Shown piece after piece: positions 8,502 through 33,428 of a DNA stretch of 35,496 nucleotides. This DNA comes from a virus. The stretch is taken from positions 1 to 35,496 of IMG/VR virus record IMGVR_UViG_3300020442_001101; one strand, 5' to 3'. Each line of letters opens with the position of its first letter. Positions within the stretch are counted from its first letter, which is position 1. The translations under genes and the position numbers were made by a program. Below the pieces are notes generated by a model. It was not told where the DNA came from. It saw only the letters and a list, made by a program, of their open reading frames with translations, and ran no database searches.

Positions 8502-8864
8502 ATGCTGAAACACAAACACCTAATAGTACGAGCAGACGTTAATAATCCACCTAAAGACGAGAATGCCATAGTCGAATGGGCCAGGAAACTAATCAATGAC
8601 ATTGGAATGAAGATCATGATGGGACCATATGCAAAATATTGTGAAATGGAAGGCAATAGGGGATTAACCTGCGTCACTATAATAGAAACCAGTCATATTG
8701 CCATACATGCTTGGGACGAAGTTAATCCTGGTCTAGTACAGCTTGACGTTTATACTTGCGGTGAATTAAAGAAACAATTGGTTTTTGATGCTATAAAAGA
8801 ATTTGATCCGATTAAGATTGATTTCAAGTATCTTGATAGAGAAAAAGATTTAACTACTTTATAA
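8502..8864 (+). CDS. speD: S-adenosylmethionine decarboxylase proenzyme homologue
   Basis: The AdoMet decarboxylase family makes the aminopropyl donor for spermidine and self-cleaves to form a pyruvoyl cofactor. The 120-residue length fits the small bacterial class. The processing region reads ETSHIAIHAWDE, where S64 would become the pyruvoyl group, H69 assists processing, and C86 in LDVYTCG is the expected proton donor. The residue before the serine is Thr (T63) rather than the Glu usual in this class, so cleavage should be tested. AAAAGGA lies seven bases before the ATG. It is one of only two plus-strand genes, and its end overlaps the minus-strand gene at 8854 by 11 bases. Confidence 0.82.
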   Translation: MLKHKHLIVRADVNNPPKDENAIVEWARKLINDIGMKIMMGPYAKYCEMEGNRGLTCVTIIETSHIAIHAWDEVNPGLVQLDVYTCGELKKQLVFDAIKEFDPIKIDFKYLDREKDLTTL

Positions 8865-10227
8865 ATCTGAAAGCAAATTTACCACCAATTCTTGAACTAT
8901 AATAGTTTTTACTTCCGTCTAATGCAACTGTTCCTTGGAAGTTTGGCGGATATACTGCGTCATATTTGCTTACAAATATGTCATTACCTTTTTTGCCTAC
9001 TCTTGTGTACAATTGAATGATACTCGCAGTGTTAAGAAGTCTAATTGCTTCTGTTGAAAAGTTTGGATTTTTATTTACTTCAATAGCTACCTTTTTTGCT
9101 ACCGCACTGGTCAATGCATAACCTGCATTGAATCCTTGCACATTAGTATCGAAGTTTACGCCTGTTATTATTTTTTGTGCTTCTTCACTTAATCCTTCAA
9201 ATGTACGTGCGCCTGCTGATATAAGTTTCTTTGTTTCCGTTCTTAATGCTGGTGTTGTGATTTCAAATCTTTCACCTAAAGAAAACGGTGCATCTTTTGC
9301 TGTTTCGTTGTTTATGATTTCAATAATAGGTTTAATGAATTGAACACTTTGCATTAACTTTTTATCATCTTTATTTTTGATTAGAGAATCATATAAGTTC
9401 TTTGCACTTGCGGCCGCACCTGCTCCGCCCTTTGAACTGATCAATATTTTCTTACCATCAGGTGCAACAAATACACTATCAGCTAAATTGTAGTTCATTG
9501 ACTGTGGCCAAAATATTTCTAAATCATTCCAGTTTGCGCCACCTGCCAAATCTTTTCTTGCTTGTTCTGCTGGTCCTAGTACTGCTCCGCCCATCATTGC
9601 TACCGGACCCATTATTTCTCCAAAGTAATCTCTGATTGCTTCCAACCTTTCAACTTGTCCTGGAAACTGTGCTAACTGTCCTGCGGCACTTGCTCTCAAA
9701 GCATCACCTAAAATCTTTTTGTCGTCTTGTGGTGCTTTGTTTTCCACATGTCTAATTACGCTATCAGAACCTCTAAAAAAGTTTTTTGTAGCAATTAGTG
9801 TTTGTGGATCTAATCCGGTTTGTAATTTTGTAGCACCCTTTGTTTTCAATTTCCAGCCATCTGGTATTGCATTGTTAGGCCATATACCTAACAAGTCATG
9901 AGCGTTTTGTTGTAGATATCTACCCCAATAAATTTTTTGTCCATCTGATGTTTGAATAACAGCGATACCAAATGCTAACATTCTTGCAGTTGGTTTATTG
10001 GTCCATGAAATTTCGTTTGGTTTAAGTCCGTTATTTGTTTCGAAGTTTTTTATTGCTTCGTCTCTTGCTTCTGGTGTTTCAAATTTTCCTCCATCTGTCA
10101 TTGGTGGATATGCTTCAACTCCGACAAATTCTGCCTGCACTCCGCCACGCTCGAATGGATCCCCTTGTTTTCTACCAAATACTCCTTTGGCCTCGAACAG
10201 AGGTTTTTTAATTTGATAAAAACGCAT
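8854..10227 (-). CDS. Large putative packaged protein, possible nuclease-like core (457 aa)
   Basis: No family is recognised with confidence. The N-terminus MRFYQIKKPLFEAKGVFG resembles a capsid-targeting leader with L-F-E as the cut. The central region (residues about 235-285) reads NYNLADSVFVAPDGKKILIS followed by SKGGAGAAASAKNLYDSL. A strand ending in S-S-K after an Asp-containing strand resembles the (D/E/S)xK half of a PD-(D/E)xK nuclease site, but this is only suggestive. The rest is helical and neutral. Its ATG overlaps the stop of the upstream 88-residue gene (TAATG). It may be another head-packed protein of the island, separated from it by speD. Confidence 0.75.
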   Translation of the reverse strand: MRFYQIKKPLFEAKGVFGRKQGDPFERGGVQAEFVGVEAYPPMTDGGKFETPEARDEAIKNFETNNGLKPNEISWTNKPTARMLAFGIAVIQTSDGQKIYWGRYLQQNAHDLLGIWPNNAIPDGWKLKTKGATKLQTGLDPQTLIATKNFFRGSDSVIRHVENKAPQDDKKILGDALRASAAGQLAQFPGQVERLEAIRDYFGEIMGPVAMMGGAVLGPAEQARKDLAGGANWNDLEIFWPQSMNYNLADSVFVAPDGKKILISSKGGAGAAASAKNLYDSLIKNKDDKKLMQSVQFIKPIIEIINNETAKDAPFSLGERFEITTPALRTETKKLISAGARTFEGLSEEAQKIITGVNFDTNVQGFNAGYALTSAVAKKVAIEVNKNPNFSTEAIRLLNTASIIQLYTRVGKKGNDIFVSKYDAVYPPNFQGTVALDGSKNYYSSRIGGKFAFRFIK

Positions 10228-10493
10228 TAAACACTAACCTCAATGTCAAAGTCGTTGTAACCTAGATCAAAAAGTTTGTTTGCTATTTTATTTGCTACAT
10301 CGTCTGACTCTTGTTCATCTAGTTGTACATGCGTTTCAACTGTAAGAACTGTTTTACCATCTTCTGTATCATAAAGCTCGTAGCCTGTTTCTTCTTCTAA
10401 TAAGGCATTTGATGCTGATGTTGCTACTTCGGAGACGACTATGTCATCCACTTCTTGTTTTGAGTCAAAAACGATATTGATAAAATTTTCCAT
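10227..10493 (-). CDS. Small acidic phage protein (88 aa)
   Basis: Not recognised. A strongly acidic alpha/beta-looking protein with a regular pattern (YELYDTEDGKTVLTVETHVQ, then ANKIANKLFDLGYNDFDIEV) like a small ferredoxin-type or ACT-type fold. It has no Cys, membrane segment or leader. AGGGA precedes the ATG, and its stop overlaps the start of the 457-residue gene (TAATG), so the two are coupled and it could be a partner or inhibitor of that protein. The pairing is inference. Confidence 0.65.
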   Translation of the reverse strand: MENFINIVFDSKQEVDDIVVSEVATSASNALLEEETGYELYDTEDGKTVLTVETHVQLDEQESDDVANKIANKLFDLGYNDFDIEVSV

Positions 10494-10502
10494 AGAACTT
10501 CC

Positions 10503-10844
10503 CTAATGATTCATTCTGATACTATTAATAGTACCGTCTGTGTACACAACTTTTGCTCTAATAAAAACAAAGTTTCCTGTGAAGTTTGCATATTTAATTG
10601 CAGTTTCTTGTGACGCTGTGTATGTGTGTACATCGAACCAATCAGTATCACCTGGACTGGTTGCTAATGTTGCTTGTATTGTAATGGTTCCTGTTAATCC
10701 AGTAAAATCATAAGAAACAGTATGAACACCGTCTGAATGACCATAGTAACCATCACCTCTAAAGTTGCTTCCGGTGATAGTTTCTGTTGTGCTATCTCCT
10801 GGATGCGTATTTGCTGATAAAATTATTTCACTACTACTTGGCAT
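10503..10844 (-). CDS. Beta-rich virion-type protein (113 aa)
   Basis: Thr/Ser/Gly-rich sequence with alternating hydrophobics (TGTITIQATLATSPGDTDWF, then FTGNFVFIRAKV and INSIRMNH at the end) that looks like a small beta-sandwich. Similar short proteins occur among virion structural proteins of marine T4-like phages. It has no signal peptide. The ATG has no Shine-Dalgarno. An AATAAATA box ends five bases upstream, partly made by the stop codon of the previous gene, so late, near-leaderless transcription is possible. It is probably a capsid- or fibre-associated decoration protein, but no specific family is claimed. Confidence 0.65.
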   Translation of the reverse strand: MPSSSEIILSANTHPGDSTTETITGSNFRGDGYYGHSDGVHTVSYDFTGLTGTITIQATLATSPGDTDWFDVHTYTASQETAIKYANFTGNFVFIRAKVVYTDGTINSIRMNH

Positions 10845-10848
10845 ACTA

Positions 10849-11532
10849 TTATTTATTCAAATCTGCTTCACTAACATACTTGACAATTTTTGAAATAGAA
10901 CCGCCTATTGCAATTTTAGCAAGCATTAAATAACGTTCATTCTTTGTAAAGAAGTAAAATCCTTCTGTGTAATGTCCAAGTTTTATTGCTTGCTTGGCCT
11001 TGCTTCCAATACGTATTGCATGTGAATTCGCTTCACAATAGTTAACAAAATTAGGATCGACTCTCTTTGTAAAGAACGCTTTGTATGGCCATTCAACATC
11101 ACCTTTGACTATTTGAGTATTTTTATTTTCAAGTAAAAAGTTAAGGTTATCGTCATTAGCAGGTTCATGGAATTCTAATGCACCTATTTTATCAGCAAGT
11201 TCTTCTAACCAAATATTTTCATTAGAATATATATCTAGTTTGTGTCCTTCTATCCTAACCATACAGTTATCTTTATTACGTTCTAACGCTTTATAGATTA
11301 CGCAATTATCCATAAAGGTTTCTAAAGTTATGTGTTTAGGATCTCCTCGCCAAGCTCTAAATGGACTCTTTATAGCCAAGTCGGCTTCTGCATCCATTTG
11401 CATTTCGTCAAGTTTAGTCTTGGCCCAGCCAAGATTCATTCCTCTATATATAGGAGCAATGGGATTTTGTAACCTAAGTTTAAAAACGTATTTGTTGTAA
11501 AACAGTTTAGTTGTTAGTAATCTCTGCAACAT
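10849..11532 (-). CDS. Conserved phage protein of unknown function (227 aa)
   Basis: Not recognised. A mixed alpha/beta protein with a basic, hydrophobic N-terminus (RLLTTKLFYNKYVFKLRL) that is not a clear membrane anchor. The middle reads DNCVIYKALERNKDNCMVRI, and the C-terminus YLMLAKIAIGGSISKIVKYV. It starts 26 bases inside the 3' end of clpA in another frame, with AAAAGG seven bases before the ATG, so it is made from the clpA transcript and may act with ClpA, for example as an adaptor. That link rests only on the overlap. Confidence 0.7.
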   Translation of the reverse strand: MLQRLLTTKLFYNKYVFKLRLQNPIAPIYRGMNLGWAKTKLDEMQMDAEADLAIKSPFRAWRGDPKHITLETFMDNCVIYKALERNKDNCMVRIEGHKLDIYSNENIWLEELADKIGALEFHEPANDDNLNFLLENKNTQIVKGDVEWPYKAFFTKRVDPNFVNYCEANSHAIRIGSKAKQAIKLGHYTEGFYFFTKNERYLMLAKIAIGGSISKIVKYVSEADLNK

Positions 11533-13765
11533 TTTCTACCTTTTGTTTAGTAGGTTTTAAGATAAGTTCGTTTTTCTTTACATCAATTTGTAAAGAACCG
11601 CCATTTCTTAGATCACCGAAAAGTAGAAGTTTACTTAGAGGACGTTTGATATGTTTGTCTATATATCTTTGCATAGGTCTTGCACCCATTTTGCTATCAA
11701 AACCGTTGTCAACTAAATGATCAAGTGCGTCATCTGTTATTTCACACACAACGTTTTTATCATCAAGCATTGTTCTAAGCTCTAACAAAAACTTACCAAC
11801 AATTTTTAACATAATTGGTTTGTCAAGTTTACCGAACGTAACAACGCCATCTAATCTATTTCTAAATTCAGGTGCAAAGAAACGTCTAAATTCTTCATCA
11901 CCATAATCGCCATCTACATCATGGCTGAAACCAATAGCATTTCTTTCTGCTTGTTCCGCACCAAGGTTTGTAGTAAGGATCAAGATGCAGTTTCTTGCAT
12001 CTGCTTCTTTACCGTCACTTCCAGTAATTTTTCCATTGTCCATAATTTGCAATAAAATCTGCGAAATATCAGGATGTGCTTTTTCTATTTCATCTAATAG
12101 CAATACACAGTTAGGATGTTCTTGTAGCTTGTTAATTAGTTGTCCTGAATGCTCATCATGTCCAACATAACCTGGAGGAGAACCAATCAACTTTGATACA
12201 CTGTGTTTTTCTTGATACTCACTCATATCAAATCGTGCAAGATGAATACTTAGATGTTTTGCAAGTTGTTTAGCAAGTTCTGTTTTACCAACACCAGTTG
12301 GACCCATAAACACAAAAGCACCAATCGGTTTATCTTCAGTTTTCAAGCCAGCTTGTGCAACAAGTATTTTGTCTACAATTTCATCAATAGCATTATCTTG
12401 CCCATACACATTTGCCTTTAGATTTTTGTTCAGTTTGTTAAGGTTATTTGTCTCCTTTTGTTGTATTTGTTCCGGAGGCAAATTAACAAATTTTGCAAGC
12501 TCAAACTTTATCTCGTCTGGAGTTACAATTTTGTTTTCTTCTTGATTGTTTACTTTAAATCTACTACAAGCAAGATCAATTAAGTCAATAGCTTTATCAG
12601 GAAGTTTTTTATCTGTGATATATTTTACACTTAATTTGACTGCTTCATCGATAGCTTCTTCAGTAATTGTTGTTTTATGAAATTCTTCATAATACTTTTT
12701 TATACCAATAAGAATATCTTTAGTTGTTTTCTTATCTGGCTCATCAATACTTACACGTTGGAATCTACGCATTAACGCACGATCCTTTTCAAAGTATTTT
12801 CTATATTCTTCCCAAGTTGTTGATGCAACTACTTTGATATCTCCCTTACCAAGAGCAGGTTTCAACATATTAGCTAGATCGTTTGAACTATTACCACCTC
12901 CTGTGCCAGCACCATTCATCATGTGTGCTTCGTCAATGAACACAATAGTTTTGCCTTGTTTCTTTATAGCTGATAACACCAGCTTGAATCTTTCTTCAAA
13001 GTCTCCTCTATATTTAGAACCTGCCAACATAGCACCAATGTCTAAATTGTATACACTATATTCTTCTAAAAATTTAGGGACTGCTTTATTAACAATTCTA
13101 TATGCAAGTCCTTCAGCAATAGCAGTTTTACCAACGCCCGGTTCACCAACTAACAATACATTGTTTTTACTTCTTCTACCGAGACTTAGACAAATGCTTT
13201 CTAACTCATCTTGTCTACCAATTACTGGATCAATTTTTCCGCTCTCAACTTCAATATTAAGATTGGTAGTAAAAGCCTTTAATGCTCTTTGTGCATGTCC
13301 TGCTAATTCTTCATCTTCTAAATTAGCAACATATTCTGTGTTTACATACTCATTAAATTTATTCTTTTCAATTCCTGAACTTGTAGCCAAATAACAAGCG
13401 AAAGATTTTTGTTCATTTAACAAGGATAAAAACACATCCGTTACATCAATGTGTGCTCTACCACTAAACAGCACTTGAGTAAAAGCACGGTTCATTACTC
13501 GTTCTACTGTTTGCGTTTTTTTAGGTTTAAACTTTGTTCCTTCTGCTACTTTAATCTCATCAAACTTTGTTTGTAAATGATTTAAAAGTTCGTCTTTCAT
13601 TGGCTTTGGATCGATACCAAAACCGTCTAAAACATTCATAAAATTTTCGCTACAAAGCATAGCAAAAAATAAATGCTCCAACGTAATATATTCGTGGTTC
13701 AGCTTTTTTGCATCTTTGATAGCTTTTTCGAATACTACCTGTAATTCATCAGATGGTTCTACCAT
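11507..13765 (-). CDS. clpA: ClpA-type AAA+ unfoldase (752 aa)
   Basis: Full-length Clp/Hsp100 ATPase of the ClpA type: an N-domain (residues 1-150), D1 with Walker A GEPGVGKT (207-214) and Walker B VFIDEAH, and D2 with GPTGVGKT (488-495) and LLLDEIEKAH. There is no ClpB/ClpC middle domain. An IGF tripeptide (611-613, in AERNAIGFSHD) sits where ClpA/ClpX carry the [IL]GF/L loop that docks on ClpP. The phage protein could therefore use the host ClpP. Arginine-finger segments (LMRRFQ, FRNRLD) are intact. A sigma70-like promoter lies upstream and GAGGAG precedes the ATG. It is probably early, and would redirect host proteolysis. Confidence 0.93.
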   Translation of the reverse strand: MVEPSDELQVVFEKAIKDAKKLNHEYITLEHLFFAMLCSENFMNVLDGFGIDPKPMKDELLNHLQTKFDEIKVAEGTKFKPKKTQTVERVMNRAFTQVLFSGRAHIDVTDVFLSLLNEQKSFACYLATSSGIEKNKFNEYVNTEYVANLEDEELAGHAQRALKAFTTNLNIEVESGKIDPVIGRQDELESICLSLGRRSKNNVLLVGEPGVGKTAIAEGLAYRIVNKAVPKFLEEYSVYNLDIGAMLAGSKYRGDFEERFKLVLSAIKKQGKTIVFIDEAHMMNGAGTGGGNSSNDLANMLKPALGKGDIKVVASTTWEEYRKYFEKDRALMRRFQRVSIDEPDKKTTKDILIGIKKYYEEFHKTTITEEAIDEAVKLSVKYITDKKLPDKAIDLIDLACSRFKVNNQEENKIVTPDEIKFELAKFVNLPPEQIQQKETNNLNKLNKNLKANVYGQDNAIDEIVDKILVAQAGLKTEDKPIGAFVFMGPTGVGKTELAKQLAKHLSIHLARFDMSEYQEKHSVSKLIGSPPGYVGHDEHSGQLINKLQEHPNCVLLLDEIEKAHPDISQILLQIMDNGKITGSDGKEADARNCILILTTNLGAEQAERNAIGFSHDVDGDYGDEEFRRFFAPEFRNRLDGVVTFGKLDKPIMLKIVGKFLLELRTMLDDKNVVCEITDDALDHLVDNGFDSKMGARPMQRYIDKHIKRPLSKLLLFGDLRNGGSLQIDVKKNELILKPTKQKVENVAEITNN

Positions 13766-13797
13766 TTACAATATTCTCCTCAATATTATTTAAGCAT

Positions 13798-13826
13798 AGT
13801 ATAACGTATATTTTATACAAAGTCAA
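13798..13826 (-). promoter_or_regulatory. Sigma70-type promoter of clpA
   Basis: On the minus strand TTGACT (13826-13821), a 17-base spacer and TATACT (13803-13798), each one mismatch from consensus. The clpA ATG is 32 bases downstream of the -10 box, after GAGGAG. Early-class promoter. Confidence 0.8.
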
Positions 13827-13827
13827 C

Positions 13828-14676
13828 TTAAATCTTACTTTTTATTTGTTCAATTGCATTTAGGTCATCGCCGCCTAAATTGCGTGGTGTTTCGCCTATT
13901 ATCCTAACAAGTATGTTTCCGTTTCTTCCTGTCTTTCTGTTTGGTAAGCCTCTTTGTGCAATACTAAAAACGGTGTTAGGTTGTGTGCCTTTTGGAATGT
14001 TTAGACTAACTGTTTTACCATCCGGAATAAGAACATCTATTCTAGCTCCTGTTATCAAATGAAGTGTGCTAATTCTACGCACCGTGTGTAAGTCGTTACC
14101 ATGCACTTCATATTCAGATCCGTTTTGAATCTGTATCATAACATACAAATCACCTGCAGGAAGATTTGGATTGTCTTTTTGCCCCATGCCTGTATATCTA
14201 ATTTTATCGCCTTGATTTATGCCTACTGGTACTTTTATGTCTACAGTTTGTTCTAATCCGTTGTTAAGCCTATATGTTGCAATGACATTTTTACCAGTAT
14301 ATACTTCTGCAATCGATATTCTACATCCGATTGTGATATCTTGGTTTTGCATTTGTCTTTGCCCGAATCCTCCAAAACCAAATTGCCCCATTAAATCATT
14401 AATGTTGATGCCGCCTTGAAACCCATCAGAAGTAAAATGAAAGTTTTGGAATCCTTGCGGACCTGCTTTTTGCGGATCAGCAGTGCCATAAGTGTCATAC
14501 ATTTGGCGTTTTTCTTTATTGCTTAAAACTTGGTATGCTTCGTTTATTTCTTTGAATTTAGCATCGTCACCGCCTGTTCTATCAGGATGATGTTGCATAC
14601 TTTTCTTTTTGTATGCAGACTTTAAATCCTTTTCCGAAGCTGACTTGGGAACACCGAGTATTTCATAGTAGTCCAT
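13828..14676 (-). CDS. dnaJ: DnaJ/CbpA-like J-domain cochaperone (282 aa)
   Basis: Residues 1-65 are a J-domain (DYYEILGVPKSASEKDLKSA) with the essential HPD at 30-32, which stimulates DnaK. A Gly/Phe-rich linker follows (GGININDLMGQFGFGGFG), then two substrate-binding beta domains with the CbpA/DnaJ C-terminal pattern (VPVGINQGDKIRYTGMG; HLITGARIDVLIPDGKTVSL; GLPNRKTGRNGNILVRI). No CxxCxGxG zinc repeats are present, so it is a type II (CbpA-like) J-protein. It should work with host DnaK in head/tail assembly or replication. A CCTAAATA late-type box lies just before the ATG and no Shine-Dalgarno is seen. It stands beside clpA, making a proteostasis pair. Confidence 0.9.
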   Translation of the reverse strand: MDYYEILGVPKSASEKDLKSAYKKKSMQHHPDRTGGDDAKFKEINEAYQVLSNKEKRQMYDTYGTADPQKAGPQGFQNFHFTSDGFQGGININDLMGQFGFGGFGQRQMQNQDITIGCRISIAEVYTGKNVIATYRLNNGLEQTVDIKVPVGINQGDKIRYTGMGQKDNPNLPAGDLYVMIQIQNGSEYEVHGNDLHTVRRISTLHLITGARIDVLIPDGKTVSLNIPKGTQPNTVFSIAQRGLPNRKTGRNGNILVRIIGETPRNLGGDDLNAIEQIKSKI

Positions 14677-14685
14677 ACTACTACT

Positions 14686-14693
14686 TATTTAGG
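14686..14693 (-). promoter_or_regulatory. Possible T4-late-like promoter of dnaJ (CCTAAATA)
   Basis: Minus-strand CCTAAATA ending nine bases before the ATG of the J-protein gene, which lacks a Shine-Dalgarno. A near-leaderless transcript is implied if it is used. Confidence 0.4.
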
Positions 14694-14696
14694 TTT

Positions 14697-15083
14697 TTAC
14701 TTCTTAGAACGTGATCCGGTATAAAGTCCAAACCATGCCGCGCCAGCACCAACTACAATTGAAACAAGTCCTGATTGTTCCATACTAGGTGCTTCTAACG
14801 CCATGTACCAAAGGACGACTTTGTACAAAAGGTAGATGTATGTTGAAATGAAAATACGTGGAAAAATTCTCCAGCTGTCTACAGCTCTTGCCATGTGAAT
14901 TATTTTGGCATAAGGATTGGGTCCAAGATCTTTTACACTTGTATCTACTTCAAGATCTAATTTTACCTTTTTACTTACACCTGCTTCACTTGCCGGCACT
15001 ACAACTTTTGCATCTGGCTTCTTTGCCTCATTTTCAAAAGTCTTATCTTCTGCAACCAAATCTTCAGGTCTCTTTCTTGGCAT
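14697..15083 (-). CDS. Membrane protein, holin candidate (128 aa)
   Basis: A soluble charged N-terminal half (residues 1-65) is followed by two hydrophobic segments: RIFISTYIYLLYKVVLWYMA (about 74-94) and SGLVSIVVGAGAAWFGLYTG (about 104-123). It ends in the basic tail SRSKK. Two close membrane spans with a short polar turn and a basic C-terminus are the layout of class II holins. It stands first downstream of a group of membrane and spanin genes leading to the endolysin. GAGGGAG precedes the ATG, which overlaps the upstream stop by one base (TAATG). It is the best holin candidate here, but the assignment is contextual. Confidence 0.65.
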   Translation of the reverse strand: MPRKRPEDLVAEDKTFENEAKKPDAKVVVPASEAGVSKKVKLDLEVDTSVKDLGPNPYAKIIHMARAVDSWRIFPRIFISTYIYLLYKVVLWYMALEAPSMEQSGLVSIVVGAGAAWFGLYTGSRSKK

Positions 15084-15538
15084 TATTTTCTCCCTCTTAG
15101 TTTATCAATTTCTTTTTTGTTTTCTTCAATGCTATCTCTATTCTTTCCTATCTTGGAATCTTGAGCTTTATCTATAAGTTCTTGCATTCTAAGACCTCGC
15201 TCAATATCAGAATCGAGATGTAAATCTTTGTTTATAATTTTCTCTAATTTTAGATTTGGTATCTTATCATTTGCAACATATCTCCAAGTGTAACCACGAG
15301 AGCCGTAGCATCCAAATACAGTTTCACGCAATCCTATTTTTACAATAATTGATTGCTCTCCGTCTAGTAATACTTCATCGCCTTCGTTGAATGCAGGATT
15401 GAATCTAAACTTCAAACCTTGCATGAAATTTGTGGCAAAATCTTTGAACCAGAAAGCGGCAGAAATACTGATAAGGATAGCAATCCAAGGTACCAACATG
15501 CTTGCAACATCCAAGCCCATCTTGTCAAATGCTTCCAT
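15083..15538 (-). CDS. Small MscS-like membrane protein (151 aa)
   Basis: One hydrophobic segment (SMLVPWIAILISISAAFWF) runs into KDFATNFMQGLKFRFNPAFN, then GDEVLLDGEQSIIVKIGLRE. This resembles the pore-lining TM3 and beta domain of small-conductance mechanosensitive channels (MscS), where the TM3 helix is followed by '..F.P...GD.V.L.G..G.V..I...'. The N-terminal TM1-TM2 and the C-terminal vestibule are missing; the remainder is a coiled, charged tail. It could form a pore, act as an osmotic adjuster, or serve as a holin-like protein. GGAG precedes the ATG. It is tightly coupled on both sides within the lysis region. Confidence 0.6.
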   Translation of the reverse strand: MEAFDKMGLDVASMLVPWIAILISISAAFWFKDFATNFMQGLKFRFNPAFNEGDEVLLDGEQSIIVKIGLRETVFGCYGSRGYTWRYVANDKIPNLKLEKIINKDLHLDSDIERGLRMQELIDKAQDSKIGKNRDSIEENKKEIDKLRGRK

Positions 15539-15823
15539 TTATTTCTCCAATCTTTTGATCCGTGCTTCCAATTCATCTATCTTTTTTGTTACGTGTGGAT
15601 ATTTTTTGCGCCATGCATCATCTGGTTGTTGTAACCATGTCCACCCCCAACGCTTTACAAGATAATCTACAGTGAGATCAAATTTAGCATACAACCACAA
15701 ACCTATTCTAGTGCTTTTAAAATATGTCGAAAATGCTAGACCAAAGAGTGACCCTACCAAGGCTGTGTATATCCACAACCTATCAGTTGCCATTCTACCG
15801 ATCATATCCCATACTGTTTCCAT
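15539..15823 (-). CDS. Single-span membrane protein in lysis region (94 aa)
   Basis: A hydrophobic segment near the N-terminus (LWIYTALVGSLFGLAFSTYF, about 16-35) is followed by an aromatic amphipathic stretch (GLWLYAKFDLTVDYLVKRWG) and a coiled-coil-like charged C-terminus (KKIDELEARIKRLEK). It has no lipobox or enzyme motif. It may partner the MscS-like protein, whose tail is also coiled-coil-like, or serve as an antiholin; both are guesses. A GATAAATA box ends six bases before the ATG and no Shine-Dalgarno is visible, so a late, near-leaderless message is possible. Its stop is followed directly by the next ATG. Confidence 0.65.
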   Translation of the reverse strand: METVWDMIGRMATDRLWIYTALVGSLFGLAFSTYFKSTRIGLWLYAKFDLTVDYLVKRWGWTWLQQPDDAWRKKYPHVTKKIDELEARIKRLEK

Positions 15824-15829
15824 CAGTAG

Positions 15830-15837
15830 TATTTATC
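15830..15837 (-). promoter_or_regulatory. T4-late-like promoter (GATAAATA), six bases from ATG
   Basis: Minus-strand GATAAATA just upstream of the 15539-15823 gene. The box is a perfect copy of the window's late consensus, but is so close to the start that little or no 5' leader would remain. Confidence 0.5.
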
Positions 15838-15848
15838 GTAATATTTGA

Positions 15849-16007
15849 TTAAAATGAGCAGGACACGCTCGCGCCGGGTTCTATGTCAACACTTCTTTCG
15901 CTGATTTCTACTTTGGGCTCGGGTTTTGCTTCACAATCTACTTTCCTGACGCAACTACTTGTCGTCAGTATTATCGTCAGTATCAACAGGCTGAACAGCT
16001 TTTTCAT
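15849..16007 (-). CDS. Small lipoprotein nested over the o-spanin gene end (52 aa)
   Basis: Reads MKKLFSLLILTIILTTSSC, a textbook lipoprotein signal with Cys19 as the lipidated residue after TTSS. A 33-residue mature part follows with two further Cys (VRKVDC, SVSCSF at the end) and a Pro/Glu-rich centre. Its first 53 bases overlap the end of the 15955-16341 lipoprotein gene in another frame. No Shine-Dalgarno is seen, so translation may depend on coupling. It resembles Rz1-type o-spanins in size and Pro content, or it may be an accessory outer-membrane lysis factor. It was missed by a 60-codon length cut-off. Confidence 0.7.
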   Translation of the reverse strand: MKKLFSLLILTIILTTSSCVRKVDCEAKPEPKVEISERSVDIEPGASVSCSF

Positions 16008-16341
16008 AATATAATATAATTGCTTTTTGCTGTTCTATATAACGTCTTAGTTCGGCAAAGTTTTTTGATAGATTTTCGTAGTCTTTTATGCTAATTGCAA
16101 CATATGAATCTCCGCCATTTTTGGCTTCGAACTCTTTCTTGAATTCTTCAAAGTTTTCACTTGGTGAAACAACATAAATTTTTATGTCGTTCATTTGCAC
16201 TGGCTTAGGCATTGGTTGGATAGGTACCACTGTTTTTTCTATCTTTGTAACAACTTTTATTTCTGGGTCAGGTCTAAAAGAACTGCAACTACTCACTAGG
16301 AGTAGCACCAGTAATAGACTCAAGATCTTTCCATAGTGCAT
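15955..16341 (-). CDS. Lipoprotein, putative o-spanin (128 aa)
   Basis: The N-terminus MHYGKILSLLLVLLLVSSC is a lipoprotein signal with the lipidated cysteine at 19. A short Pro-containing segment follows (PIQPMPKPVQ), then an alpha/beta domain (IYVVSPSENFEEFKKEF; YVAISIKDYENLSKNFAELR) and a coiled region ending in an acidic tail. The gene starts inside the 3' end of the i-spanin gene in another frame, the classical Rz/Rz1 arrangement. It is therefore likely the outer-membrane half of the spanin that fuses the membranes in the last lysis step. It is longer than typical Rz1 proteins. A second, smaller lipoprotein overlaps its end. Confidence 0.75.
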   Translation of the reverse strand: MHYGKILSLLLVLLLVSSCSSFRPDPEIKVVTKIEKTVVPIQPMPKPVQMNDIKIYVVSPSENFEEFKKEFEAKNGGDSYVAISIKDYENLSKNFAELRRYIEQQKAIILYYEKAVQPVDTDDNTDDK

Positions 16342-16681
16342 CTGTTTTACCTTGCATTCGTTTTTCTATCAAGCCTGGCTTTTTATTTGCCAAGTGTGTT
16401 AGATTATGTTTGTTAAGTGTTGCACGAAGCTCGTCTCCGTACTCTTCTGATTTTTTAAGATCAACATTTAATTGATCAGTAATTTTATTAAGTCTTTCAT
16501 TATCTGCTTTAAGTAATGCTAGACTTTGTTCACTTGTTTCAACGGCAACCTCCAGTTTAGCAACATTGGCTTTCGCTACCTCAAGATTGGCTTTCAAGTT
16601 TTTGACATACAAGAAGCCACCTCCTGCACTGGCAAGAAGCCCCACTACTAGGAGTATTTTTAAACCGCTGAAGATACCCAT
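16289..16681 (-). CDS. i-spanin, Rz-like (130 aa)
   Basis: The N-terminal signal-anchor LKILLVVGLLASAGGGFLYV is followed by a long periplasmic coiled coil (residues about 30-110: NLKANLEVAKANVAKLEVAV, then LNKITDQLNVDLKKSEEYGD), the standard layout of an inner-membrane spanin. An in-frame ATG at 16759 would add 26 residues lying within the endolysin gene; the ATG at 16681, with AGGA eight bases upstream, gives the proper anchor position and is chosen. It pairs with the overlapping lipoprotein gene at 15955-16341. It follows the endolysin gene by five bases. Confidence 0.82.
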   Translation of the reverse strand: MGIFSGLKILLVVGLLASAGGGFLYVKNLKANLEVAKANVAKLEVAVETSEQSLALLKADNERLNKITDQLNVDLKKSEEYGDELRATLNKHNLTHLANKKPGLIEKRMQGKTDALWKDLESITGATPSE

Positions 16682-16686
16682 ACCTT

Positions 16687-17535
16687 TTATCCTAAGAGCT
16701 TTCCCAATGTTTTTGGTCCAACAATACCATCTGCTACCAAGCCGTTTGAACTTTGCCAATTTTTAACAATTTTCTCTGTGCCTGGACCAAAGATGCCATC
16801 TGCTGGACTTATGTCTAATTTTTCTTGTACTTCTGCTACAAGTGGTCCTCTCGAACCTTTTCTAATTGTTTGGTTATAGTCTGTTTTAGGTTCCTCGTAA
16901 TCTCCACCTAACACATCAATTGCATGTAGGTAATGTTTCTTACGATCGTCTAATCCTATAGTTCCACCGTTTATTCTTTTGGTAGCACCTACAACATCCA
17001 TATCGTCACACCATTTGTTAATGTTGTTTGTGTCCCAAAACCAACAAGCTGAATCTAACGCACCTTTTTTGGTACGCACATAGTCAACTGCTTCTTCTGG
17101 TGACATCTCCATTGCTTTTCCGAATTGTGTGTAGTTGTATCTACCAGTGAGCTGTAATATGCCGCCGCCTCTGAAACGCCAGCCGTCACCACTGTTGGTA
17201 TCGCCATTGTCCATCCTGTTTGCATAAATGACATTAGCAATTTTTTCTGGTTGTCTATGGTATTCGTTTGCATCTCTTCCTGCCCTCCTAAAGTATTTAG
17301 GAAAAATTGTGTTAAGTGCTTTGGCGCTATAGTTTAAGTTTTCACTCATTACTCTAAAGCCGCCGGACTCGTGTCCACACTGGGCAATAAACATAGCAAC
17401 TCTTTCAATTGTGTCTACTTCCCATAAAGGAAGTATTTCGCACATTGCTTCGTACCAATCTTTCCAGTCGTCTCTATGGATAAGCTCTTCTGCCATCCAC
17501 TCTTCAAAATCAAATTTAAAATGTTCTTTAGCCAT
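16687..17535 (-). CDS. GH19-type endolysin with C-terminal peptidoglycan-binding domain (282 aa)
   Basis: Lysozyme/chitinase of glycoside hydrolase family 19, which cuts the murein glycan. The catalytic region shows RVAMFIAQCGHESGGFRVMS, with E56 as the likely acid, and RFRGGGILQLTGRYNYTQFG, the family's substrate-cleft segment. Residues about 212-282 form a PG_binding_1 domain (RKGSRGPLVAEVQEKL; DGIFGPGTEKIVKNWQ; DGIVGPKTLGKLLG). There is no signal peptide, so export needs a holin. The ATG at 17535 with AAGGA is preferred to the earlier in-frame ATG at 17580, which lies within the preceding small gene. It is followed by i-spanin and lipoproteins in a lysis cassette. Confidence 0.92.
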   Translation of the reverse strand: MAKEHFKFDFEEWMAEELIHRDDWKDWYEAMCEILPLWEVDTIERVAMFIAQCGHESGGFRVMSENLNYSAKALNTIFPKYFRRAGRDANEYHRQPEKIANVIYANRMDNGDTNSGDGWRFRGGGILQLTGRYNYTQFGKAMEMSPEEAVDYVRTKKGALDSACWFWDTNNINKWCDDMDVVGATKRINGGTIGLDDRKKHYLHAIDVLGGDYEEPKTDYNQTIRKGSRGPLVAEVQEKLDISPADGIFGPGTEKIVKNWQSSNGLVADGIVGPKTLGKLLG

Positions 17536-17680
17536 TATTCGTATCCTTTTGTTGACATGCTTCACATCTGCATTGTTCACATACTTTGATATTTATGATT
17601 TTATTGTCACCGTCTGTCATATCTTTATATAGTGGTGTTCCACAATGTGATTGATTTCCACAGTTTCGACAGTTGCTCAT
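17528..17680 (-). CDS. Cys-rich zinc-binding-like miniprotein (50 aa)
   Basis: The ATG at 17680 follows directly on the TAG of the previous gene and has AAAGGA upstream. The 50 residues contain CRNCGNQSHC near the N-terminus and VCEQCRCEAC near residues 33-42, seven cysteines in all, the spacing of a small treble-clef or zinc-ribbon protein. The CxxCxCExC element is shared with the metallothionein-like protein at 3362-3469. Its last eight bases overlap the endolysin start. The function is unknown; metal binding is inferred from the cysteines. Confidence 0.72.
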   Translation of the reverse strand: MSNCRNCGNQSHCGTPLYKDMTDGDNKIINIKVCEQCRCEACQQKDTNNG

Positions 17681-18379
17681 CTAAATCCTTTTGAGCTGAA
17701 GTTGGTATCCTTGGTTTTCTAGTACAAGATTTTTGCCATACTTTGTTATATTATAGTCACCTAAATACTTCGTAGCCCATATAACTTCAGCCATATCTTC
17801 CATATTGATTGTTTCTTTAATTTCTAAATCTTTACCAAAATCAACAACCTCAAATTTTACTGGTTGCTGAAATGTATTTTTTACTTCTAATATATCACTC
17901 TTTAAAACTATGCTTTCTGCATAGCTGTTACTAAAAAAATTCTTGTAGTTTTCTAAATGTGTTTCTGTAGTGAGCCTAGTGTAAGCATCTTTGTCCATTG
18001 GAATCGATACTAAACTTTCTTCGTCCAGTGGCATACTTTTAAAATTTTTATAATATCTAAACCGCAAATTATCTACATCTGCTAATTTTCTTACTCCGTC
18101 TGCTATTTCTAAAATATGCATTGGAGCATCTTTGTCTCTTTCCATTTCAACAAAAACTTTATAAGAACCATCTGATTGTTCTCCACTTGATACATCTGCA
18201 TCAAGTACAAACGAATATCCTTTTTCTATGAAGTTTTCTAAATCTTTTGCTGGTTCATTTCCGTTGACTGAAAATGCTAGGGTAATTATATCTTCATCGT
18301 TACCCATTTTTGATTTGTATGAATCTATTTCTATTATATTATCTACTAAAAATTGTAAATCGTTTTTAAGTAATCCCAT
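17681..18379 (-). CDS. Conserved phage protein, probably virion-associated (232 aa)
   Basis: Not assigned to a named family, but the start (LLKNDLQFLVDNIIEIDSYK) is a pattern seen in a pair of proteins conserved among marine T4-like phages. The protein is acidic, alpha/beta, without Cys or membrane segments. Its ATG overlaps the stop of the upstream partner gene at 18379 (one base, TAATG), so they form a two-gene unit behind a late-type promoter. A structural or assembly role is likely from promoter type and neighbourhood. No catalytic motif is seen. Confidence 0.7.
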   Translation of the reverse strand: MGLLKNDLQFLVDNIIEIDSYKSKMGNDEDIITLAFSVNGNEPAKDLENFIEKGYSFVLDADVSSGEQSDGSYKVFVEMERDKDAPMHILEIADGVRKLADVDNLRFRYYKNFKSMPLDEESLVSIPMDKDAYTRLTTETHLENYKNFFSNSYAESIVLKSDILEVKNTFQQPVKFEVVDFGKDLEIKETINMEDMAEVIWATKYLGDYNITKYGKNLVLENQGYQLQLKRI

Positions 18380-20434: not shown

Positions 20435-20968
20435 TTAAAACTCCATATCTGCGGCTACAATAAATCTATCTTCCATAGATTGTACAACACCAGGACGGTG
20501 CCATACCTTTCCTGGATATATCATCCAGTGTCCTGTTTTCCAAGGAACAAAAAAGTTTCCTTCTCCTTCAGGGTTAATAGGTGCAAGCTCTGTGCCTGCT
20601 TTGTCTAAGTCCTTAACGTCATCAGGTAATTGCATGTAATAAACACCACTTACTGTTGTCGTTGCAGTGTTATGATTATGATGATGCCAAAGTTTATCTC
20701 TATCTTCTTCGTGCTTTAAACTTGTTTGAAAACTCCAACTTTGTATTTGCTTAATTTGTACTTCTCGTCCTAAATACCTAAAGCATGACCAAATAAAACT
20801 CATTTTTAAATCTGTGAAATCTTGGAATACATTCCAGTTAGTTTGATACTTCGGACTATTATGCCAAAACTTTCCCGCTTTAATTCCTAAAGAGACAGTG
20901 CTGACCATGCTCTTTCTATCTTTTTCTGTGATTAAATTATTCCAATCATAGTATTCATATTCTATCAT
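20435..20968 (-). CDS. 2OG-Fe(II) oxygenase, P4H-like (177 aa)
   Basis: Putative 2-oxoglutarate/Fe(II) dioxygenase. The core shows WHHHNHNTATTTVSGVYYMQ (candidate ligands H97-H99), then HWMIYPGKVWHRPGVVQ with H157 as the distal ligand, and R168 in EDRFIVAADMEF as 2OG anchor. It is the canonical marine-phage type with 'HxHxxxxxSGVYY', clearer than the relative at 858-1472. A longer in-frame start at 21001 would extend into the peptidyl-prolyl isomerase gene; the ATG at 20968, overlapping that gene's TAA (TAATG), is preferred. The substrate is unknown. Immediately downstream is thyX. Confidence 0.85.
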   Translation of the reverse strand: MIEYEYYDWNNLITEKDRKSMVSTVSLGIKAGKFWHNSPKYQTNWNVFQDFTDLKMSFIWSCFRYLGREVQIKQIQSWSFQTSLKHEEDRDKLWHHHNHNTATTTVSGVYYMQLPDDVKDLDKAGTELAPINPEGEGNFFVPWKTGHWMIYPGKVWHRPGVVQSMEDRFIVAADMEF

Positions 20969-21288
20969 TAACCTGTCCTTACGACTATATGCACTCCCCA
21001 AGGACTAACAATTGGAGGACCTATCGTATCCATTGGTATGACTTTTACTGCGTTTGCGAAATCAGGATGAAAATGTTCTTCTTGTTGCCAGCCTAAGTCA
21101 CCGCCATGCCTAGGTCCACTTGCACACGCACTATATTTTCCAGCGGCATCTGTCCAACTAATCTGTCCTGATTTAATTTCTTTGATGAGAGTTTCTGCTT
21201 CAGTCATAGCCGCACCTAATGGTCTTTCGTGTGAACTATTTTCAGCATCTTTGTGACTTAATAAAATATGTTTACATTTAAATTTCAT
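20968..21288 (-). CDS. ppiC: Parvulin-type peptidyl-prolyl cis-trans isomerase (106 aa)
   Basis: Rotamase of the PpiC/parvulin family, which speeds proline isomerisation during folding. The fold pattern is complete: KHILLSHKDAE at the start, a helix AETLIKEIKSGQISWTDAAG, KYSACASGPRHGGDLGW, then F..A.........GPPIVSPWGVHIVVRTG. The length equals a single parvulin domain with no signal peptide, so it is cytoplasmic. Its targets are unknown; with dnaJ, clpA and the GroES-like gene it suggests that this phage carries its own folding toolkit. It follows the ferredoxin stop without a gap (TAAATG). Confidence 0.9.
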   Translation of the reverse strand: MKFKCKHILLSHKDAENSSHERPLGAAMTEAETLIKEIKSGQISWTDAAGKYSACASGPRHGGDLGWQQEEHFHPDFANAVKVIPMDTIGPPIVSPWGVHIVVRTG

Positions 21289-24979: not shown

Positions 24980-25381
24980 CTAATTTGTAAATTCTTCTGG
25001 TCTAATATCTGCAGGACCATCACTGTATTCATATCCTATACGATGATCAGATGGTCTTTCATCTGAGTACGCAAGAATGCTTTCAGCTTCTACCATTCTA
25101 AGTGTCATATCTTCGTCACCTAAAGTAATAGACAATCCTCTTGTCCAACGTCCGTGTTCAACAAGGATCCATTGTCCTTGTTCGTAAGGGTCATTGTTCT
25201 TAGGACCCTTTCTAAAGACTTTACACCATCTTGGGTAAATGCCTCTAGTGGTGCCATCATCACTACGGATAATAATTCCGCCCTTTGTAACTTGTTCACC
25301 AAATTCCATATCAGAAACAATTACTCTGTTTCCAATCGCTTTTATGTCGTCTGCTTTTACGGATACTAGGTTAGTTCCCAT
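24980..25381 (-). CDS. GroES-like cochaperonin, gp31 analogue (133 aa)
   Basis: A GroES-fold protein. The start is IKAIGNRVIVSDMEFGEQVT, then KGGIIIRSDDGTTRGIYPRW, in which the segment around TKGGIIIRSDDGTT corresponds to the mobile loop that docks on GroEL. It continues with EQGQWILVEHGRWTRGL. T4 gp31 replaces GroES to fold the major capsid protein gp23, and marine T4-like phages carry similar genes. It is longer than GroES (about 97 residues), with an acidic C-terminal tail (PSDHRIGYEYSDGPADIRPE). Its ATG overlaps the upstream stop (TAATG). With DnaJ, ClpA and PpiC it completes a folding set. Confidence 0.82.
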   Translation of the reverse strand: MGTNLVSVKADDIKAIGNRVIVSDMEFGEQVTKGGIIIRSDDGTTRGIYPRWCKVFRKGPKNNDPYEQGQWILVEHGRWTRGLSITLGDEDMTLRMVEAESILAYSDERPSDHRIGYEYSDGPADIRPEEFTN

Positions 25382-31835: not shown

Positions 31836-31843
31836 TATTTACC
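31836..31843 (-). promoter_or_regulatory. Late-type promoter (GGTAAATA)
   Basis: Minus-strand GGTAAATA 18 bases before the ATG at 31817, overlapping the last codons of the protease gene and followed by AAGGA. Confidence 0.5.
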
Positions 31844-33428
31844 TTGTTTTCCTTAAACCAAAAACATTGCTTGTGAATGGTACAGCTTTATTATATCTGT
31901 TAAACAACATCCTGTTGTTACCTCCACAGATATCTGTTGTATCACCATAATTGGTGGCATTGCTTTCGTCCTTCAAAACTGCTAGAGCATCTTTCTGTAA
32001 TTTGTCCTGTAACTGTGCAGGAGTCAAACTTGGATCAGCTTGTAAATATAAAGCACCAACACCACAAACTTGAGGAGATGCCATAGACGTACCTCCTATT
32101 GTTCCTTGTCTAAATGAACTGTTACCCCAGTATGCCGCATCTGTATAAGCATTAGACGTGCTGAAACAACTTAAAATATCTGTGCCTGCGGCAAATATAT
32201 TAACACCAGGACCCGTTGAGCTAGAGCTGACTTTTCTTTCTACTGTAGCACTCTGTGGAGTCGAATCCATGTTACCTACCATCAATGCTCCTTCGTCAAA
32301 AGGAGAACTTCCTCTGTGATAATAATTATTACTGCCTGTGCCATAGAAAACAATGTTATTATAATCAGCACCAGGTCCTACTGAAGTATCTATTTTAAAA
32401 CTATTATTTCCAGCCGCAATGCAAATATGCACTCCAGCATCTATGCAATCTTGAACATCTGCATCTACACTTGCCACTCTAAGTGGAAATCGGTAAGAAG
32501 GAAATCTATAGTATGGATAAAATCCGTATGTATCTCTCATGTGCGAATTGGGTGAGCTAGAAAAACTACTGTCATTCCCAGAACTATAAGTTGTACCTCT
32601 ATAATTAATACTGGTTATTCCTGAACTTATACTTGCACTATATCCCCAACTTGCATTTACTATTGTTGGTCTTTTGTATCCAGTATTAGGATCAACAGGT
32701 TTATTTTCATGCCAACCTTTTATTACATCAAAGCAACTGTTAATGCTTATGCCGCCAGTATCTCCACTACCTTCTAGTCCACCTACCTTTACACTATACA
32801 CCCTTGCATTAGAAGCCCAACCAAAATGTAATCCAGTTGCTGTTCCTCCACAGTGGGTTCCATGTCCATCAGTGTCTCCATAATGACTTGCACTTTGTGA
32901 ACCTGTTACACCTGAAGCTGAAAACCAATCTATTTGCTGTACTCTACTTACACCATTTGCATCATTGAATTCTGGATGATCTACTTGCAGACCGCTATCT
33001 TGTATAACAATATCAACTCCTGTACCGTCCATTGAATATGGTCTTGCATAACTTGATAAGTTATCTCCAGTACCATAAACATTTTCAATAATAGAATGTC
33101 TTATCTTGCCCCAATCAGTTCTATTGCCGCTTTCTAATGTTGATTTAGAAAAGTCTCTTATCTGTGTTGCTTGGAATCCTATTTCAAGATCATCTCTAAG
33201 GTCAGGTCGAATCTGTACATCTGTTACTCTTGAATCATTTCTTAATGCTTCTGCTTCGGCATCAGTTAATGCGTAATGTGTATTCCTTGTAGACTTTTGT
33301 CTTGGATCTGCAACGTCTACTGTTCTATTAGGAATGTCTCCTGCTCCAGTCGAAGCAATCATTTCCTGATTAAATTGTGCGTAGTCTACTCCTTTGTTTA
33401 GAGTTACAATGTATTCTTTTTCACTCAT
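31839..33428 (-). CDS. Subtilisin-like serine protease, probably virion-associated (529 aa)
   Basis: A peptidase S8 (subtilase) with an intact catalytic triad: D144 in DIVIQDSGLQVDHPEF, H189 in GDTDGHGTHCGGTATG, and S448 in GGTSMASPQVCGVGAL, plus the oxyanion Asn341 in CIAAGNNS. Residues 1-120 look like an inhibitor-type prodomain (EYIVTLNKGVDYAQFNQEMI), as in secreted subtilases, but there is no signal peptide. It lies inside the fibre block, 9 bases after the 644-residue fibre gene, with AGGAG before the ATG. It could mature fibre proteins or attack the host surface during adsorption. The C-terminal 60 residues lack a known domain. Confidence 0.92.
   Translation of the reverse strand: MSEKEYIVTLNKGVDYAQFNQEMIASTGAGDIPNRTVDVADPRQKSTRNTHYALTDAEAEALRNDSRVTDVQIRPDLRDDLEIGFQATQIRDFSKSTLESGNRTDWGKIRHSIIENVYGTGDNLSSYARPYSMDGTGVDIVIQDSGLQVDHPEFNDANGVSRVQQIDWFSASGVTGSQSASHYGDTDGHGTHCGGTATGLHFGWASNARVYSVKVGGLEGSGDTGGISINSCFDVIKGWHENKPVDPNTGYKRPTIVNASWGYSASISSGITSINYRGTTYSSGNDSSFSSSPNSHMRDTYGFYPYYRFPSYRFPLRVASVDADVQDCIDAGVHICIAAGNNSFKIDTSVGPGADYNNIVFYGTGSNNYYHRGSSPFDEGALMVGNMDSTPQSATVERKVSSSSTGPGVNIFAAGTDILSCFSTSNAYTDAAYWGNSSFRQGTIGGTSMASPQVCGVGALYLQADPSLTPAQLQDKLQKDALAVLKDESNATNYGDTTDICGGNNRMLFNRYNKAVPFTSNVFGLRKTR

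Follow-up and report, generated by a model that had tools for sequence, protein, structure and literature searches.

Does a phage-encoded ClpA serve the protease of the host, or one belonging to the phage itself? This question is raised by the window analysed here, which is the whole of virus record IMGVR_UViG_3300020442_001101 (35,496 bases) and is read as a fragment, with relatives of up to 357 kb. Its clpA gene (11507..13765, minus strand) encodes an AAA+ unfoldase of 752 aa; the plus strand across 11507-13765 is full of stops. A sequence-only reading of the window, in which neither ClpP nor ClpS was seen, had proposed that the phage might capture the ClpP of its host.

Upstream of clpA lies dnaJ (13828..14676, minus strand), encoding a 282-aa protein with a J domain (HPD) and a C-terminal domain (Pfam DnaJ 2e-23, DnaJ_C 4e-30). 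Comparison was made with 80 relatives from IMG/VR having 66-84% ClpA identity, which gave 81 loci with the window, and conservation was counted over 69 distinct phage ClpAs, the window's included. A dnaJ gene adjoins clpA with 0-1 gene between in almost all relatives; a peptide deformylase gene occupies the position between them in about half, and in L071 and L073 it is replaced by a 434-aa radical-SAM-like gene identified by eye. A Shine-Dalgarno-like AGGAG (13776..13780, minus strand), read directly, is found 10 bases before the clpA ATG. Downstream of clpA is an ORF of 227 aa (10849..11532, minus strand), and next in the row a 113-aa ORF (10503..10844, minus strand; phrog_13657, 1e-13), which has a weak match to phrog_14467 'virion structural protein' (8e-6) and is syntenic in 76 loci. 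A tRNA scan and an Rfam search of the window both returned nothing. Elsewhere in the window, genes resembling AdoMet decarboxylase (8502-8864, plus), parvulin (20968-21288, minus), GroES (24980-25381, minus) and subtilase (31839-33428, minus) were recognised by eye, which together with DnaJ and ClpA make up a rich protein-handling set.

The 752-aa product matched phrog_4871 'ATP-dependent protease' (E 9e-248) and contains, in order, the Pfam domains Clp_N, AAA, AAA_lid_9, AAA_2 and ClpB_D2-small. Phmmer aligned its residues 6-735 with residues 4-743 of E. coli ClpA in one continuous alignment (E 3e-191), whereas ClpB and ClpC aligned in two pieces. The layout is that of the class I Clp/Hsp100 proteins, an N-domain followed by two AAA+ modules without a long M-domain. 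ClpB, a DnaK-coupled disaggregase, differs in having an M-domain inserted into D1 and in lacking an IGF loop; a ClpB identity is ruled out by the continuous D1 alignment to ClpA and the presence of IGF. E. coli ClpA (ClpAP/ClpAPS; PDB 1ksf, 1r6b, 6w1z and 6uqe) resembles the window ClpA in length, domain order, lack of an M-domain, Walker A and B motifs, pore loops (KYRG and GYVG), Arg finger, sensor 2 and the position of the docking loop. The two are 42.4% identical and differ in the docking tripeptide (IGF in the window, IGL in E. coli) and in gene neighbourhood, phage clpA having dnaJ and often deformylase as neighbours and no clpS beside it. Hexamer formation, stimulation of ClpP and substrate degradation are predicted for a protein of the ClpA class.

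The full N-domain and the two ATPase sites described in the sequence-only reading were borne out by Pfam, by phmmer and by motif counts over the 69 ClpAs. The D1 Walker A motif GEPGVGKT (residues 207-214; 13124..13147, minus strand) occurs as G[DE]PGVGKT in 69/69 and that of D2, GPTGVGKT (residues 488-495; 12281..12304, minus strand), as GPTG[TVC]GKT, also in 69/69. The Walker A and Walker B motifs, sensor 2, both pore loops and the Arg finger of D2 are conserved over the 69 ClpAs, except that the Walker B motif of D1, IDE, reads VEE in one relative. The N-domain (residues 1-143; 13337..13765, minus strand) was delimited by Pfam Clp_N (E 3e-7) and the phmmer alignment, and corresponds to the ClpS-binding domain of E. 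coli ClpA. The positions aligned with E. coli H22, T26, E28, H29, T81, R86 and R90 are invariant in relatives and that aligned with E23 is nearly so; the positions around the E. coli ClpS contact region are mostly invariant.

The tripeptide IGF is encoded at residues 611-613 (11927..11935, minus strand), in register with I617-G618-L619, the IGL tripeptide by which E. coli ClpA docks onto ClpP. Among the 69 distinct ClpAs the triplet is IGF in 65, VGF in three and LGF in one, so that G and F are invariant and I is nearly so. The mean majority-residue frequency is 0.98 for the triplet, compared with 0.69 for the eight residues before it and 0.49 for the eight after. Conservation of the triplet is therefore above chance, and we conclude that the predicted ClpP-docking triplet of phage ClpA is under strong selection. 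IGF is also found in the remote isolates PA5oct, Paride, Phosso and Atu_ph07; in some isolates the triplet is weak or lost (MNM in Munch, IGG in Hallingskeid).

A search of the 35-kb record found no ClpP, and none of the ORFs that were read or scanned is a ClpS; the earlier observation of their absence stands for the record but carries no information on the phage, relatives of which encode both. The two genes are probably missing from the window because it is a 35-kb fragment. The nearest checkable relative (G015; ClpA identity 84%), a 67-kb contig, encodes ClpP (E 3e-75) and ClpS (E 2e-28), both flanked by genes matching phage families. ClpP was present in seven and ClpS in seven of 15 large relatives; 43 mostly small fragments had two ClpPs and no ClpS, as expected for pieces. 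One or both genes were lacking on the long fragments G001 (156 kb), G008 (165 kb) and G010 (147 kb), and G006 (330 kb) had ClpS only. G002 has neither, whereas the longer G003, which has a matching ClpA locus with the same match figures, has both; absence from a fragment is thus weak evidence. In relatives clpA is distant from both clpP and clpS, which do not share an operon with it. We infer that the phage of the window carries clpP and clpS outside the 35-kb fragment.

The isolates checked that carry such a ClpA encode full-length ClpP in 13/13 and a ClpS-domain protein in 13/13, twelve over the Pfam cut-off and that of XaC1 under it, although the 13 fall into about five lineages and are not 13 independent cases. 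By comparison, 11 large phages without such a ClpA had no ClpS (0/11) and full-length ClpP in only one, Bacillus phage G; partial ClpP matches in two of them, KVP40 and phiR1-37, were left out of the full-length count. The reverse test, starting from ClpS, found ClpP in 12/12 phage contigs and ClpA in 6/12, all of them fragments; one 278-kb ClpS contig without ClpA is either a real exception or incomplete. A record labelled 'Acinetobacter phage MD-2021a' (L103, CAKLQF020000008.1) was left out, having argC, aroF and bioH on the contig; it looks like host chromosome within a phage collection.

The ClpP and ClpS of relatives were compared with the E. coli sequences and pocket positions. S97, H122 and D171, a complete Ser-His-Asp triad, are kept in all eight aligned ClpPs, and the hydrophobic docking positions L23, L48, Y/F62, F/Y82, M92 and L114 are mostly kept in seven, the ClpP of L100 being divergent. 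These alignments establish for close relatives a phage ClpP with a predicted intact triad and a mostly conserved docking pocket. In six aligned ClpS proteins N34, D35, M40 and H66 are kept. The PHROGs name would make this ClpP merely a head-maturation protease, a label rejected on its match to true ClpP over 180 residues (PDB ClpPs, E 1e-65). Five of the eight ClpPs have an insert of about 10 residues after the catalytic His loop (MIHRVSSGT...VHVQELQFEDA; L091, L092, L096, L099 and L101). The ClpP of L096 shares 65% identity with that of PA5oct-like phages, as does the ClpP of relative G007 with those of PA5oct and Paride. A second, divergent ClpP-like gene was seen in L100 (6690-7256, minus), G059, G069 and G070, in some beside an ordinary ClpP.

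Comparable sets occur in known phages. Agrobacterium phage Atu_ph07 encodes ClpA (gp292), DnaJ (gp293), ClpP (gp676) and ClpS (gp708) (PMC6102473). Like the window it has a phrog_4871 ClpA with the IGF triplet and DnaJ directly upstream, and like the relatives its own ClpP and ClpS; it differs in a ClpA identity of 40%, ClpX- and ClpB-like genes, lack of the 227-aa neighbour and a different phage lineage. The Pseudomonas jumbo phages PA5oct and Paride share the DnaJ-ClpA row with PhoH close by and the IGF triplet, and have their own ClpP and ClpS, but their ClpA is 42% identical, structural genes flank DnaJ-ClpA and the 227-aa neighbour is lacking. The RaK2-like enteric jumbo phages (121Q, RaK2, CBB, GAP32 and Munch) have a ClpA of the same kind, their own ClpP and a ClpS-domain protein; they differ in that clpA, located between tail or structural genes, stands by itself on the opposite strand, the ClpS domain lies inside a protein of about 185 aa, and the docking triplet drifts (IGM, IGV, LGM and MNM).

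On this evidence we propose, with good confidence, that the clpA product is the putative unfoldase subunit of a protease, ClpA-ClpP-ClpS, which large T4-like phages own themselves, the likely partner of the phage ClpA being phage ClpP rather than host ClpP. Against this stands the fact that ClpP and ClpS were seen in relatives and isolates and not in the window. That phage ClpA instead docks host ClpP and redirects host proteolysis, alone or besides phage ClpP, appears unlikely: an IGF loop is generic enough for a bacterial ClpP, bacterial and phage ClpPs have closely similar folds, and some relatives show no ClpP on long fragments, but ClpP and ClpS co-occur with such a ClpA in the nearest checked relative and in every isolate checked, and a phage with its own ClpP has no need for capture. 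The premise of host capture is lost because it rested on a truncated contig. The clpA finding is real, well conserved and largely of a known kind, and a phage-owned ClpAPS is the better reading.

In the phage-owned protease, ClpA would dock onto phage ClpP through its IGF loops and thread unfolded proteins into it for degradation, while ClpS would hand N-degron proteins to the ClpA N-domain for feeding to ClpP, the three proteins presumably forming one complex. Over a long infection the protease may dispose of proteins that are misfolded or come from the host, and DnaJ, acting through host DnaK, could present or refold clients. If this is true, the phage brings its own selective protein-disposal system, and a loose guess at host ClpP hijack gives way to a testable reading in which phages seem to carry a full ClpAPS protease. 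Cultured Paride or PA5oct on P. aeruginosa would give access to what such a protease degrades; host takeover, counter-defence and quality control in long infections are possible roles to tell apart.

Another possibility is that phage ClpA, together with DnaJ, serves virion assembly, mainly by chaperoning or remodelling and without proteolysis. The presence of dnaJ near clpA in nearly all loci, the structural genes flanking clpA in PA5oct and 121Q, and the translocase or assembly roles proposed in a review (PMC7824862) are consistent with it. However, an invariant GF in the docking loop would be unneeded without ClpP, and the DnaK-coupled ClpB has no docking loop and has the M-domain that the window ClpA lacks; we regard such a role as very unlikely.

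The 227-aa ORF overlaps clpA by 26 bp (11507-11532), exactly as first noted, and its start overlaps clpA in most relatives. It is present in 76/81 loci, missing from one clade (L005, L006, L007, L009 and L010) whose ClpA is otherwise normal. The product had no Pfam or PHROG match and no match in 50,697 phage records. An AF2 model (pLDDT 96.6) has two alpha/beta halves; Foldseek against the PDB gave no clear fold match (best E 5e-3, TM 0.18), the best VIA hit (Z 6.0 over 62 residues at 5.5 A) was read as no assignment, and BFVD matches were uncharacterised phage proteins, one from Atu_ph07. The suggestion that this product is a dedicated adaptor delivering substrates to ClpA, for which coupled translation suggested by the overlap and fast divergence (23-56% identity among relatives, beside 66-84% for ClpA) might speak, is highly improbable given its absence from five relatives, the gap of about 450-640 bp to clpA in L038 and L060, the lack of any recognisable ClpS, MecA or SspB fold or sequence, and the existence of ClpS elsewhere in relatives.

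The gap between dnaJ and clpA contains a sigma70-type promoter, TTGACT-N17-TATACT (13798..13826, minus strand; 10/12 matches), a feature already named in the sequence-only reading. Such sites number 29 in the region against 38 in shuffles, fewer than shuffled, and the scan alone is weak. Comparison with relatives upheld the promoter: in 18/18 of those with a dnaJ-clpA gap of 40-110 bp, the window included, a site scoring 10-12 was found, of the form TTGAC[AT]-N16/17-(TATAAT-like), against a background of 4.7% of 910 other ORFs. In loci where the two genes are separated by one for peptide deformylase, a similar promoter is found inside the deformylase gene, about 155-190 bp before clpA (L005, L006, L009, L016, L024, L026, L035, L042 and others). 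Codon bias was testable in 93 columns of 34 deformylases, and the three columns where it is strongest coincide exactly with the -10 and -35 bases (CTT GAC ... ATA), with Ile as ATA in 23/23, Leu as CTT in 31/34 and Asp as GAC in 30/30, a clean case of DNA-level selection within coding sequence. Where dnaJ abuts clpA the promoter lies inside dnaJ (ten sequences, a weaker test). Among loci of the first of these kinds, L020, L029, L030, L031, L062 and L064 are without the promoter at that place. Exact matches to the T4 late promoter TATAAATA number just one in the window, below the chance expectation, with none near clpA. Conservation across relatives and the deformylase codon bias indicate that clpA is selected for its own sigma70-type promoter, and we conclude that this conserved predicted promoter belongs to clpA itself. 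It would allow early transcription by the host sigma70 polymerase.

Phage ClpA, and the full Clp set in Atu_ph07, are already known: ClpA beside DnaJ, with ClpP and ClpS, was described in that phage in 2018 (PMC6102473). A 2021 survey listed ClpP, ClpS and ClpA in jumbo phages and proposed recruitment of host ClpAP by ClpS and a helping role of ClpA in assembly (PMC7824862), and moraphages have ClpA among their core genes (PMC12619734). The literature searched held no statement of a tight ClpA-ClpP-ClpS linkage or of a conserved promoter, and nothing on point about Clp function in PA5oct or Paride; the tight linkage and the conserved clpA promoter may be new. With moderate confidence we suggest that ClpA, ClpP and ClpS make up a complete N-degron protease of bacterial type that occurs as a linked functional set in a large clade of aquatic T4-like and jumbo phages, with clpA under its own host-sigma70-type promoter kept even inside the upstream deformylase or dnaJ.

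The tree places phage ClpAs on deep branches that are distinct from the bacterial ones, the branch separating the bacteria having a support of 77/99, which is not full. Identity to true bacterial ClpAs is no higher than about 40-46%, and with the phage proteins on deep branches of their own, a host of origin was therefore not found from ClpA. There is nothing to suggest that the protein was recently acquired from a host. MAGs assigned to unrelated bacteria and to an archaeon gave matches of 50-69% (L128, L130, L131 and L132); these were rejected as bacterial or archaeal ClpAs, being probably wrongly binned phage contigs. On the phage contig L093, bilin reductase-like (phrog_7278) and heme oxygenase-like genes (16626-17925, minus) lie beside clpS and hsp20, and CHASE2/cyclase-like (phrog_35576), FecR-like, curlin-repeat-like and CsgG-like genes stand in a row (9206-16205, minus), called by eye except for the PHROG matches.
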